64,000 bases of DNA from NCBI RefSeq assembly GCF_001936595.1, contig NZ_MLBG01000002.1:1-64000 (forward strand), in the 5' to 3' direction. The position numbers were made by a program, and so were the translations under genes. The notes below the pieces were generated by a model. The model made no database searches. It had not been told where the DNA came from and saw only the letters and a program-made list of their open reading frames with translations. Numbering within the stretch: the stretch's first letter is position 1; every line of letters starts with the position of its first letter. Positions 11,734 through 15,699 of the stretch are shown in pieces. This DNA is from Desulfovibrio sp. DV (lineage in GTDB: Bacteria > Desulfobacterota > Desulfovibrionia > Desulfovibrionales > Desulfovibrionaceae).

Positions 11734-12320
11734 CAGGCTTCCCCGGCCAGCTCCCGGAACCGGAAGCAGTCGCGCAGGTGGTCGTTGACGAGTCCGGCGG
11801 CCTGCAGGAAGGCGTAGACAATGGTGGGGCCGACAAACCCGAAGCCACGGGCCTTGAGGTCGCGGCTGACGGTTTCGGCCAGCGGCGTGACTGCCGGAAC
11901 CTGGCTGATGTGCTCCCAACCGCCGACCACGGGCCTCCCGTCCACAAAGCGCCATAGGTAGGCGTCAAAAGAACCAAACGCGTCGGCTGTCGCCAGAAAA
12001 GCCCGGGCGTTTTTCACCGAGGCCGCCACCTTGGCCCGGTTGCGGATGATGCCGGCGTCGGCGACCAGTTCGGCCATTTTGGCGTCGTCGTAGGCGGCCA
12101 CGCGGGCCGGATCAAAGCCGTCGTAGGCCAGCCGGTAGCCCTCGCGGCGCTTGAGCACCGTCAGCCACGACAACCCGGCCTGCGCCCCTTCGAGGAGCAG
12201 CAGTTCAAAAAGCGCCCGGTCGTCATGGAGGGGCACGCCCCATTCCTCGTCATGATAGCGGACGTAGAGCGGCAACTCGCCGCACCATGGACACCGAAGC
12301 GTATCGCGCATCACGCCCAT
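11733..12320 (-). CDS. tag: DNA-3-methyladenine glycosylase I
   Basis: Base-excision repair glycosylase that removes 3-methyladenine. About 195 residues, as usual. Landmarks: RCPWCGELPLYVRYHDEEWG at the N-terminus with the first zinc Cys and the conserved YHDEEWG, then FELLLLEGAQAGLSW with the catalytic-pocket Glu, IIRNRAKVAASVKNA, and FVGPTIVYAFLQAAGLVNDH with the C-terminal zinc His. Three ATG codons are clustered at 12326, 12320 and 12311; 12320 has AAGGGG nine bases before it and was chosen. That AAGGGG belongs to the neighbouring palindromic repeat, so its availability may depend on RNA folding. Confidence 0.93.
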   Translation of the reverse strand: MGVMRDTLRCPWCGELPLYVRYHDEEWGVPLHDDRALFELLLLEGAQAGLSWLTVLKRREGYRLAYDGFDPARVAAYDDAKMAELVADAGIIRNRAKVAASVKNARAFLATADAFGSFDAYLWRFVDGRPVVGGWEHISQVPAVTPLAETVSRDLKARGFGFVGPTIVYAFLQAAGLVNDHLRDCFRFRELAGEA

Positions 12321-12326
12321 CCCCAT

Positions 12327-12376
12327 CTTCCCCTTTGCAGGGGTCCGGGGGCTACCCTCCCCCGGCCGCCGGAGCA
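12327..12376 (-). repeat. palindromic intergenic repeat, copy A
   Basis: Read on the minus strand it has a conserved head (CTCCGGCGGCC), a stem CCGGGGG/CCCCCGG, then a small hairpin CCCC-TGCAAA-GGGG and a GAAGATG tail. It shares the same order of parts with copy C at 15163-15217 and, with changed stem sequence, copy B at 12452-12510. It ends right at the start of tag, whose ribosome binding site forms the GGGG arm of the small hairpin. Confidence 0.75.
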
Positions 12377-12451
12377 ACGGTGGTTCCCGCCAAACGCAAC
12401 AAGCAATATTCGCGTCTCGACTTGGCAACGCACCCGGTCAAATCAAATTTC

Positions 12452-12510
12452 CCCCAGGTGGGATTCCAAAGGGCTCAGCCCGTTGGCCGCCGGAGGCATT
12501 CTTCCCTCTT
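12452..12510 (-). repeat. palindromic intergenic repeat, copy B (variant stem)
   Basis: Read on the minus strand: GAAGAATGCCTCCGGCGGCC, then a stem CCAACGGGCT/AGCCCTTTGG, then a second small hairpin CCC-ACCT-GGG followed by GGAAA. The head matches copy C almost exactly, but the main stem has a different sequence that still pairs. It sits directly after the ubiD stop codon and overlaps it slightly, so it could also act as the 3' end of that transcript. Confidence 0.7.
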
Positions 12511-13954
12511 ACAACCCAAGTTCGCCCCACAGGGCGTCGATGCGGGCCTTGGTGGTCTCGTCCATGGTGAGCGAATCGGGCCAGCCGCGCATGTGGCCTT
12601 CCTCGGGACCCTTCTTGGTGGCGTCGATGCCCATCTTGCCGCCATAGCAGGGCATGGGCGCGGCATGGTCCAGGGCGTCGAGCGGCCCGTCCACGATGAT
12701 GACGTCGCGCCTGGGATCGACGTTGTTGCCCACGCGCCACAGCACCTCGGCCGTGTTTTGCACGTTGACCCCGGCATCCACCACCACGATGATTTTGGTG
12801 AACATCATCTGGCCCAGTCCCCAAATGGCGTACATGATCTTGCGCGTCTGGCCCGGGTAGCGTTTGTCGATGGAGACAAAGCAGAAGTTGTGGAACACGC
12901 CTTCGACCGGCAGGCTCAGGTCCACGATTTCCGGCAGCTGTTTTTTTATGAGCGGCAAGAACAGGCGTTCGGTGGCCTTGCCCATGTAGGTGTCTTCCAT
13001 GGGCGGCGGGCCGACCAGGGTGGCCGGATAGACGGCGTCCTTGCGGTGGGTGATGGCGGTCACGTGAAAGACCGGATAGTCGTCGGCCAGGGAATAATAG
13101 CCGGTGTGGTCGCCAAAGGGGCCTTCGCGGCGACGCTCGCCCGGCTCGACATAGCCTTCCAGGACAAACTGGCTGTTGGCCGGCACCTGCAGGTCCACGG
13201 TCTTGCACTGGACGAGTTCCACGGCTTTCTGGCGCAGGAACCCGGCGAACAGGAATTCGTCGATGTCGTCGGGCAGCGGGGCGGTGGCGGCATAGGTGCA
13301 GGCCGGGTCCGGGCCGATGGCCACGGCCACGGGCAGGCGTTCGCCGCGTTTTTCGGCCAGATAGTAGTGGGCGGCGCTGCCTTTGTGACGGTGCCAGTGC
13401 ATGCCGGTGGTGTTTTTGTCAAACACCTGCATCCGGTACATGCCGACGTTGCGCTTGCCGGACTCCGGGTCCCTGGTCACCACCACGGGGAAGGTGATAA
13501 ACGGGCCGGCGTCGCCGGGCCAGGTGGTCAGCACCGGCAGGATGGACAGGTCCACGTCGTCGCCGGTCAGCACCACATCCTGGCAGGGGGCGCTGTCCAC
13601 GGTTTTGGGAAAAATGCCGGCCATCTTGGCCAGCTTGGGCAACAGCTTGAGCTTTTCGATCAGCCCCTCGGGCTTTTCCATCTCCAAAATATCATCGATG
13701 CGCTGGCCCAGGCGTCCAGGTCGGTGCATTCCAGGGCCAGATGCATCCGGTCAAAGGAGCCGAAGGCGTTGGTCACCACCGGAAACCGCGATCCTTTGGG
13801 ATTTTCAAAGAAAAGGGCCGGTCCCACGGCCTTGGAGACGCGGTCGGTGACCTCGGCGATCTCCAGATACGGGTCAAGCGTGGGCTTGATGCGTTTGAGT
13901 TCGCCTTTTTTCTCCAGCAGCCGCAAAAATTTCCTGCAAATCCTTGTACGCCAT
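12509..13954 (-). pseudogene. UbiD-family decarboxylase, two frame breaks
   Basis: UbiD-family enzymes are prenylated-FMN decarboxylases, often used in menaquinone or ubiquinone synthesis. Joined across the two breaks the product is about 481 residues, normal for UbiD. The N-terminus MAYKDLQE starts at ATG 13954 with GGAG upstream; an extra base in the A/T run at 13925-13932 shifts the frame before FLRLLEKKGEL. A base missing near 13708-13714 restores the original frame before GQRIDDILEMEKPEG. Read as given, translation stops at 13874. The remaining open frame (from about 13729) keeps the bulk of the enzyme, including ERRREGPFGDHTGYYS. The two breaks cancel, which favours sequencing error over decay. 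Confidence 0.85.
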
Positions 13955-14006
13955 GAGGGAACGCTCCGGGTGTGGTCGATCCGGCAGAGCCTGCCGGTCC
14001 GCATAT

Positions 14007-14987
14007 TTATACCCGAAGCCGCAGCCCCGTAAAGGGCCGGGCCGCACCGGCCAAAATCCTGGCCCAGAATCCCGAGGCCGCCTCGGCCGGGAGCCCGCCG
14101 GCAAAGAGGCAGACCGGGGCCAGCTCGCGCCGGCCAAAGCGCACCCGGGCCAGGCTGGCGATGACGGTATCGGCCAGGGCCGGGTTTTCCAGCATGAGGC
14201 GATAGCCGGCATGGGAGGCGTCCAGGGTGAACACTGCGGCAAGGCGTCCGACTTCCGGCAACCGGCCAAAGAGGCGCAGGGACCAGGACGTGGCGGTGCG
14301 CAGGGCCAGGACTTCGGACTGGCCAAGGCCCGGATATATCCAGGGCACATAGAGCGGCCGGCCCTGGGCCTTGGGAATGACCAGCCCGGCCAGTCGGACC
14401 AGTTCCCGGACCCGGGCCAGGGCTTGGCCGGCCTCGGGGTCGGCGTGGCACAGAGCCTGAAAGTCCGCCCGGGCCCGGGTGAGGTCCAGAAGCGGGCCGG
14501 ACGCCGTCCCGGCCGGGCTTCCGGTGACCGCCGCATCAGGTTCGCCGGCAGACGCACCGGGAGCTTGTTCGGGAGAACTGCCGGGAAAAACGTCAGAGGG
14601 AAGGTCGGAAGGCGGCGCGTCGACCGGGGGCAACCGATGGAGCAGCGCCTCGAATTTCGACCGGGCGTCGGTCAGGGCCGCCAGCAGCAACACCGGGTCG
14701 TCGGCGGCCGACGGCGGCGGGGTGATGTCGCGCAGGAGAAGGTCAGGCTCCAGGCCTTCGATGCGAAAGACCAGTTCCCGGCCAGGGGCAGGCTCGTGGT
14801 CCAGGGCGGCCAGCAGCTTATGCCCGGCCACCACCACCCAGAACAGCCCGCCCGGTCCTGGCGAGACAAGCCGGCCGCGCACGATCTGCCCCACCCGCCG
14901 GCCGCGCCGGAAGGCCTGGGGATCGGAGCGGTCCTTGCCGCCGCTTGAAGGCTGGCCGCTGCCGCCGTATCCGCCTGTGACCCGCAT
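14007..14987 (-). CDS. hypothetical protein with FliK-like features
   Basis: A 326-residue protein that I cannot assign firmly. The N-terminal third (VVVAGHKLLAALDHEPAPG followed by VFRIEGLEPDLLLRDI) resembles a small beta domain seen in deltaproteobacterial hypothetical proteins and loosely in hook-length-control-like proteins. A Pro/Ala/Ser-rich linker follows (about residues 120-165), then a C-terminal domain with VPWIYPGL and LDASHAGYRLML. No signal peptide is apparent. ATG 14987 has AAGGGA upstream. It lies 52 bases before ubiD in the same direction, so the two may be co-transcribed. Confidence 0.7.
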   Translation of the reverse strand: MRVTGGYGGSGQPSSGGKDRSDPQAFRRGRRVGQIVRGRLVSPGPGGLFWVVVAGHKLLAALDHEPAPGRELVFRIEGLEPDLLLRDITPPPSAADDPVLLLAALTDARSKFEALLHRLPPVDAPPSDLPSDVFPGSSPEQAPGASAGEPDAAVTGSPAGTASGPLLDLTRARADFQALCHADPEAGQALARVRELVRLAGLVIPKAQGRPLYVPWIYPGLGQSEVLALRTATSWSLRLFGRLPEVGRLAAVFTLDASHAGYRLMLENPALADTVIASLARVRFGRRELAPVCLFAGGLPAEAASGFWARILAGAARPFTGLRLRV

Positions 14988-15162
14988 ACGGTCCCTTTAT
15001 CGTTGACGATGTGGATGTTGGGCTGCCAGCCATGGTACGCCATGCAGCAGTCAAAGGGAGCATTACGAGGAACGGGCTGTTTTACCAATTCAAACAACAG
15101 GACGTCCTGCCCCGCTCCATGACCGACCGGATCTCGCGAGAGCGCAAACCCCTGTTTCTCCA

Positions 15163-15217
15163 TTTTCCCCTTTGCAGGGGTCCGGGGGGATCATCCCCCC
15201 GGCCGCCGGAGGCATCT
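15163..15217 (-). repeat. palindromic intergenic repeat, copy C
   Basis: The cleanest copy. Read on the minus strand: GAAGATGCCTCCGGCGGCC, a near-perfect stem CCGGGGGGAT/ATCCCCCCGG, a small hairpin CCCC-TGCAAA-GGGG, and a GAAAATGG tail. It occupies the 253-base gap between the secreted hypothetical gene ending at 15241 and the gene starting at 14987, on the downstream side of the former. The rest of that gap shows nothing I can name. Confidence 0.78.
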
Positions 15218-15240
15218 TCTCTTTCTTCTCGCCCTCCCGT

Positions 15241-15699
15241 CTATCGGCCGGTCAGCTCGAAATAGTCGGTGAGGTCGATGCCGGGAAAGACGTGGACCAC
15301 GGGCGTGCAGGTTCCCTGGCGGATGATGTGGACTTGGCAGGGCACGGCCTTGCCGGGTGCAATGGCGTATTTGGCGATAAATTTCGGCCCGGGCGGCATA
15401 CTGTTGACCAGGGTCAGGGTGAAGAGCTTGTCGGGCGCGTAGAGTGGTTCGCCGACGATGGGGGTGTCGGGGGTGAACCGGTAGGTGACGGCCAGGGGCG
15501 GGTAGGGTGTGGGAATGCCTTCGGTTGGCGAGGACGGCTGCCAGGGAGCCACGGAGACAAAGACGGCGGTGCCGGGAAAGACGTCGTAGCGGCAGGGGCC
15601 GCCGCGAACCGGCGACTCGGCGGTGTTTCCCATGGCCGGCAGCAGAAACCCGGCGGCCAGGGCGCACAGGACAATGAGGCGGATGGCGTTGGAGAGCAT
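15241..15699 (-). CDS. secreted hypothetical protein
   Basis: A 152-residue exported protein. A signal peptide covers about residues 1-28 (MLSNAIRLIVLCALAAGFLL followed by a small-residue cleavage region). The mature part is rich in strands, with two Cys (GGPCRYDVFPG and GKAVPCQVHIIRQGTC has two more), so disulfides are possible. Repeated hydrophobic/Pro motifs such as FTPDTPIVGEPLY suggest a beta-sandwich, but I recognise no family. ATG 15699 is preceded by AAAGGAG at eight bases, which fixes the start. It follows the DnaJ-like gene by 31 bases in the same direction. Confidence 0.78.
   Translation of the reverse strand: MLSNAIRLIVLCALAAGFLLPAMGNTAESPVRGGPCRYDVFPGTAVFVSVAPWQPSSPTEGIPTPYPPLAVTYRFTPDTPIVGEPLYAPDKLFTLTLVNSMPPGPKFIAKYAIAPGKAVPCQVHIIRQGTCTPVVHVFPGIDLTDYFELTGR

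Follow-up and report, generated by a model that had tools for sequence, protein, structure and literature searches.

A high-copy family of mosaic palindromic repeats, mostly outside genes, in Desulfovibrio sp. DV and its relatives

REP or PU elements, of the GTAG and CGTC classes, are short palindromes with hundreds of extragenic copies, mostly near gene 3' ends, and each is a hairpin with a fixed 5' tag and a variable stem (PMC3733652). BIMEs are composite repeat units with linker modules (PMC2817692). REPINs are paired REPs, arranged as symmetric doublets and tied to a RAYT, that form a mobile-like unit and rely on an enzyme in trans (PMC3116915). MITEs are non-coding, reach a high copy number and have no gene of their own. 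Intrinsic (Rho-independent) terminators are G+C-rich hairpins that lie shortly after stop codons.

The repeats described here resemble all of these systems in part. Like REP elements, they have many extragenic copies at gene 3' ends, with variable stems behind a fixed tag, but the tag is an 11-nt GCCTCCGGCGG instead of GTAG or CGTC, a purine tract precedes it in Solidesulfovibrio, and no RAYT is linked to it. Facing pairs with mixed halves in Desulfoluna recall BIMEs, whereas full units in Solidesulfovibrio join their heads in direct orientation via TTGACGGGAACCACCGTTG and the head is common to several phyla. In contrast to REPINs, the two halves are usually different modules and are not tied to a RAYT. 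Like MITEs, the repeats are non-coding, numerous and without a gene of their own, and Desulfoluna units have heads as their inverted ends, but the internal part is mosaic and a constant target duplication was not seen. Like intrinsic terminators, the elements have a G+C-rich hairpin a short way behind stop codons, and ordinary terminators are rarer where an element is present, but they share a head sequence, follow a purine tract and carry no T-run after the stem.

The window, the whole 64,000-nt stretch of DNA that was analysed, contains three of these elements on its minus strand, at 12327-12376 (copy A), 12452-12510 (copy B) and 15163-15217 (copy C), exactly where the initial annotation had placed them. 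Their parts are listed in Table 1. A model built here, R1, scored copy B at 52.9 bits, copy C at 51.8 bits and copy A at 23.3 bits, and the best further independent match in the window reached 14.2 bits. The common head proposed in the initial annotation was exact in copies B and C, while copy A has one mismatch. The stem proposed for copy B was in the right position, but its pairing needed correction because CCAACGGGC/GCCCTTTGG contains one C/T mismatch; the intact sister form is CCAAAGGGC/GCCCTTTGG. The three sites had also been taken as separate elements. Copies A and B are instead a single composite whose two heads, 121 nt apart, are joined by the recurrent motif TTGRCGGGAACCACCGTTG, and they are not independent. 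Reading along the minus strand, copy B follows the stop codon of ubiD; 121 nt beyond it comes copy A and then tag, whose product looks like a DNA-3-methyladenine glycosylase by sequence. Copy C follows the stop codon of a 211-aa ORF. Folded alone and compared with dinucleotide shuffles, copies A and B were no more stable than the shuffles (z = -0.43 and -0.85), and copy C was more stable (z = -2.77). Since single copies A and B fold no better than shuffles, the claim rests on the family.

Table 1. Parts of the three palindromic elements in the window, in the order in which each element is read on the minus strand
Feature	Position	Strand	Basis
Copy B purine tract GAGGGAAGAA, after the ubiD stop (TAA, 12509-12511) and before the head	12499..12508	-	sequence; purine enrichment before heads
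Copy B head CCTCCGGCGGCC, with TG before it	12485..12496	-	exact match
Copy B 9-bp stem and triloop, CCAACGGGC-TGA-GCCCTTTGG, one mismatch	12466..12486	-	model R1, 52.9 bits
Copy B class tail AATCCCACCTGGGGG with C-run/G-run	12451..12465	-	tail common to AAAGGG-type copies
Copy B body of AAAGGG-type unit (AAATTTGATTTGACCGGGTGCGTTGCCAAGTCGAGACGCG...)	12394..12450	-	alignment of AAAGGG-class copies
Recurrent right-end motif TTGGCGGGAACCACCGTTG	12375..12393	-	57 copies vs 2 in reversed control, own genome
Copy A, second head GCTCCGGCGGCC of the same composite as copy B	12364..12375	-	one mismatch to head; tandem-head list
Copy A stem CCGGGGG...CCCCCGG	12345..12365	-	model R1, 23.3 bits
Copy A C-run/G-run hairpin CCCCTGCAAAGGGG	12330..12343	-	sequence; fold
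Copy C purine tract ACGGGAGGGCGAGAAGAAAGAGAAGA, after the stop (TAG, 15241-15243) of the 211-aa ORF	15215..15240	-	sequence; purine enrichment before heads
Copy C head CCTCCGGCGGCC	15201..15212	-	exact match
Copy C 9-bp stem and triloop, CCGGGGGGA-TGA-TCCCCCCGG	15182..15202	-	model R1, 51.8 bits; fold z -2.77
Copy C C-run/G-run hairpin CCCCTGCAAAGGGG	15167..15180	-	sequence and fold

The ubiD gene itself seems to be split over different frames at 12509-13960 of the window, where an ORF at 12509-13729 and an overlapping one at 13660-14451 encode consecutive parts of the protein. Its open frame is 413 aa here and about 480-570 aa in several congeners. The split is either a sequencing error or a real frameshift. 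Because it raises doubt about homopolymers in draft assemblies, one-base differences in the G and C runs of the stems may also be sequencing errors.

The family is high in copy number, palindromic, mosaic and mostly extragenic. Its head is fixed, and orthologous sites can carry different modules. We counted 313 copies (144 + 169) of the head CCTCCGGCGGCC in the 4.85-Mb genome and 6 (1 + 5) of the reversed control, far beyond a handful of copies, and the large intergenic family that the initial annotation had expected is therefore present. A stem of at least 8 pairs, counted from the final CC of the head, was opened by 84.7% of the 59 heads outside confident genes in an 841-kb sample, and by 2.4% when the bases that follow were shuffled. 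The usual core is 32 nt long and consists of GCCTCCGGCGG, the 11-nt head, followed by nine pairs around a triloop, most often TGA. We aligned 22 distinct cores, picked by hand from the genus and from other phyla, among which related copies count repeatedly; cores of other genera came from a search with GGG and CCC as a requirement at three pairs. With these limits, both sides changed at six of the nine pairs and no pair had a one-sided change, 99% of the cells paired, and the covariation score was 0.455, compared with 0.159 ± 0.022 in shuffles.

These data bear out the proposal that the stems differ and still pair. Most of the covariation lies between discrete modules, each with its own tail. 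Mismatches in the stems are rare (4 G-T vs 8 A-C on the gene strand) and the pairs are almost all Watson-Crick. Since the mismatches show no G-T bias, RNA is not favoured over DNA as the level of constraint. The initial annotation had spoken of a selected RNA or DNA structure, and a conserved palindrome is indeed what we found; with discrete modules and Watson-Crick pairs, the data do not favour selection on RNA over selection on DNA, or selection over the copying of perfect palindromes. We also observed that the stem foot seems to have as many weak bases as there are bases between the GG of the stem and the next C-run. Examples across phyla are an AAA stem followed by AATCCC, AA followed by AACCC, and A followed by ACCC.

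In gene orientation, the stop codon is followed by about 10-100 nt of purine tract, then by TG (sometimes AG, GG or CG), head, stem, class tail, class body, right end and second head. The class tail is GGAATCCCACCTGGGGG in AAAGGG-type units and GGACCCCTGCAAAGGGG in GGGGGG-type units, and the consensus unit of the GGGGGG class folds strongly. Full units in Solidesulfovibrio share the right end TTGACGGGAACCACCGTTG, and then another head follows. With up to three mismatches allowed, this motif has 57 copies in the genome and 2 in the reversed control. Among 42 right ends inspected in this genome and in the congener G122, 34 had a head 99-146 nt upstream, and CTCCGGC (at most one mismatch) came after 31. 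Many copies are cut short on the right side. The variety of stems comes down to a few discrete modules with class-specific tails, not gradual drift. The purine tract, the fixed place after stop codons, the composite unit and the exchange of modules in place are all features that the initial annotation did not include. Elsewhere in the genome, a chain of hairpins follows a stop codon at G000:C15:9016-9523 and is conserved in G122. Each hairpin is followed by ACC(C), and the chain reads GGGGCGCTGCCCC AAACCCC, CCAGGACGCTGTCCTGG ACC, CCAGGGCGTTGCCCTGG ACC, CCGGGGGGGATCATCCCCCCGG ACC. One convergent intergenic region on the same contig, at G000:C15:13863-14398, holds long near-perfect palindromes with unique arms, such as CAATTGGGGCCGCC...GGCGGCCCCAATTG.

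The placement of the heads was determined in the 841-kb sample with a home-made codon-usage gene finder (735 genes) and not with a curated annotation. On these gene positions, 50 of 58 intergenic heads were downstream of a same-strand gene, all but one of them 12-109 nt from the stop codon, and only 2 of the 58 were in divergent gaps. Purines made up 87% of the 22 nt before the head, compared with 48% in element-free 3' ends, and 82-88% before the heads of other Solidesulfovibrio. Intrinsic terminators were rarer at element-bearing 3' ends (4/50) than at the others (44/183; Fisher p = 0.011), a modest result from one test among several. The hairpins are not followed by a U-tract such as an intrinsic terminator needs, and the tails are rich in C, G and A.

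The junction between ubiD and tag was compared in 14 congeners. In seven (G080, G058, G119, G123, G124, G125 and G126) the two genes abut without an element; G125 and G119 have two such loci each. The other seven (G000, G122, G097, G025, G120, G121 and G109, the last cut by a contig end) have an element, with the stems AACGGGC, AAAGGGCAG, GGGGGCC, AGGAGAG (two genomes) and TGGGGGCC (two genomes). Against G122, which is 88.5% identical, 198 junctions could be aligned: 183 lacked heads, 11 had heads in both genomes, and 2 + 2 had a head in one genome only, some of which are gene-finder or pattern noise. The stem class differed in about 5 of 12 paired heads, as counted by eye from the sequences. 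At the C2:142116 junction, our genome has the G122 element with an AAAGGG unit set into its head and CTCCGGC on both sides. This is the one filled/unfilled pair that was found; the target duplication is ambiguous there, and an insertion and a deletion between direct head repeats both fit. Copy number swings widely between congeners, with 0 vs 81 heads in genus g36, 0-50 in g20 and 1-44 in g8.

Of the 297 genomes scanned in the phylum, almost all that clearly exceeded the control belonged to the family Desulfovibrionaceae, with one further genome, G174 (24 vs 2). A scan of title-bearing records also found the head with its hairpin in Desulfoluna, Selenomonadaceae, Clostridia and Ruminococcaceae MAGs, SAR324 and the alphaproteobacterium Arboricoccus. 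Whole-genome counts of heads, in genomes that were chosen for having a match, were 768 vs 0 control in Desulfoluna, 38 vs 1 in Selenomonadaceae, 51 vs 0 and 15 vs 1 in the Clostridia and Ruminococcaceae MAGs, 68 vs 3 in SAR324 and 25 vs 1 in Arboricoccus. Several of these carriers are metagenome bins with possible contamination; the genome of Desulfoluna limicola is complete. The Selenomonadaceae genome was the only one in its phylum with a clear excess.

Pairs of heads less than 600 nt apart in Desulfoluna comprised 19 facing, 1 facing away and 2 direct; their heads form inverted ends, and the halves are mixed from a handful of modules. Our own genome has 8 facing, 0 away and 2 direct pairs of exact heads, in addition to the direct composites. 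Around some facing pairs of Desulfoluna limicola (L400-L411), a further inverted repeat, GTAACTATTCAGCT ... AGCTGAATAGTTAC, forms a second, outer layer. The heads of Desulfoluna have no strand bias to the upstream gene (37 vs 33), and in Selenomonadaceae a T-rich tract precedes the head and most of the eight heads placed are reversed relative to the gene. Since the heads of Desulfoluna lack the orientation bias and this small sample shows it reversed, a 3'-end role does not hold for the family as a whole. A partial match consisting of a copy-like head and hairpin (TGCCTCCGGCGGCCGGGGGGAAGCTCCCCCCGAACCCC) lies near a rep gene of the Brevibacillus brevis plasmid pBbsII (L445:1501-1544), the only plasmid match. 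A phage origin was rejected, since phage records gave no match and a hairpin followed the 14-mer in only 3 of 80 viral-contig loci inspected.

The comparison to REP-type elements made in the initial annotation is right as an analogy. The 32-nt core and 313 heads in 4.85 Mb agree with a palindrome of roughly 20-40 nt in more than 100 extragenic copies, and the 3' location is shared. The layout is that of BIMEs, with mosaic palindromic units in alternating orientation and linker motifs (19 facing pairs in Desulfoluna, 8 in our genome). These could be REP elements proper, mobilised by a RAYT that was lost from this draft genome, and a degenerate Y1_Tnp fragment at G000:C9:20040, the only one in the genome, would suit such a loss. 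But all cores begin with GCCTCCGGCGG and none has a GTAG or CGTC tag at its 5' foot, so they are not BIMEs in the sense of being built from REP units either. A search of 16 genomes for Y1_Tnp found no gene in G080 (367 heads), G124, Selenomonadaceae, Arboricoccus and other carriers. None of 17 Y1_Tnp loci inspected was flanked at the gene by heads in the fashion of a REPtron, and a head lay within the fetched flank in only 2. The RAYT link was rejected on these grounds, and because tag and RAYT link were both tested with negative results, we do not file the family as REP. The REP reading is already weakened, and we regard it as highly unlikely. An autonomous element with its gene between facing heads was likewise rejected, since the 0.5-2.8 kb intervals contain ordinary host genes or no long ORF. 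Rfam gave no match at the gathering threshold in the window and none at E up to 1 in 12250-15300. The head sequence appears in no paper of the open-licence literature searched, where nothing relevant on Desulfovibrio with REP or stem-loop repeats was found. With no known-family name, Rfam model or open-licence paper to attach, we provisionally consider the family undescribed.

The elements could instead be a 3'-end signal maintained by the host, either a lineage-specific terminator or an RNA 3'-end protector under selection, with copies kept similar by gene conversion and not by mobility. The tight same-strand placement after stop codons, the retention of position across many orthologous junctions whose hairpins differ yet still pair, the depletion of ordinary terminators, and the strong folding of copy C and of the GGGGGG-class consensus would all agree with this. 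However, an intrinsic terminator needs the U-tract that these hairpins do not have, and the gene strand shows no excess of G-T over A-C mismatches. Congeners with near-zero copies, the seven in which ubiD and tag abut without an element, and the opposite or missing orientation bias in other phyla also speak against a host signal, which we find rather unlikely. Gyrase and IHF have been proposed as binders at REP/BIME elements, and the head and palindrome might similarly form a double-stranded or cruciform site for a nucleoid protein or topoisomerase. The strictly kept head, the near-perfect Watson-Crick palindromes without wobble bias and the facing pairs between convergent genes are in line with such a site, but the patchy distribution between congeners would be odd for an essential chromosome function, and we judge this improbable. 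We give almost no credence to small translated peptides, in which the purine tract would be a ribosome-binding site followed by ATG or GTG and CCT CCG GCG GCC (PPAA). Many copies do read (A/G)TG directly before the head and after a purine-rich tract. Some have AG, GG or CG in place of the start codon, and the reading was rejected on early stops in the AAAGGG and GGGAGGGGG classes and on head-to-head spacings that are not multiples of three.

The explanation that we prefer, and think probable, is that the three elements belong to a high-copy mosaic family of palindromic non-coding repeats that works like REP/BIME elements, is mobilised by an enzyme and leaves strong hairpins after genes. As non-autonomous DNA, the units would be spread by this enzyme, through mobility or recombination. 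They may often land within or next to copies that are already there, and this would account for the tandem heads and for the exchange of one module for another at a fixed place. When transcribed, the hairpins would lie in the 3' untranslated region and could act as 3'-end barriers or weak terminators, and would then be tolerated or useful behind genes. The 313 vs 6 copies, the paired stems, the 50 of 58 heads after same-strand stops and the discrete modules support mobile repeats, as do the module differences at orthologous junctions, nested units, copy-number swings, patchy distribution, facing pairs in Desulfoluna and scarcer terminators. Against mobile repeats, no mobilising enzyme was found (Y1 transposases are absent in several carriers and none is flanked by heads), there was no clean empty site with a proven target duplication, and the sole filled/unfilled pair also fits a deletion. 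It is possible, although we hold this only tentatively, that a dedicated and undescribed mobility system uses the fixed head as its site of recombination or insertion. Such a system would exchange the hairpins behind the head at gene ends like cassettes, would have passed between phyla and would use an enzyme other than a Y1 transposase.

If mobile repeats are the correct explanation, hundreds of copies per genome in several phyla belong to a repeat family without a name, without an Rfam or literature entry in the sources searched and without a known enzyme. The congeners provide a natural experiment, in which one gene junction has no hairpin or one of several interchangeable hairpins in sister species. 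Because these junctions differ in their hairpin, both the effect of the element on transcript ends and its way of moving are directly testable. The family would also affect how 3' ends and spurious small ORFs are annotated in Desulfovibrionaceae.
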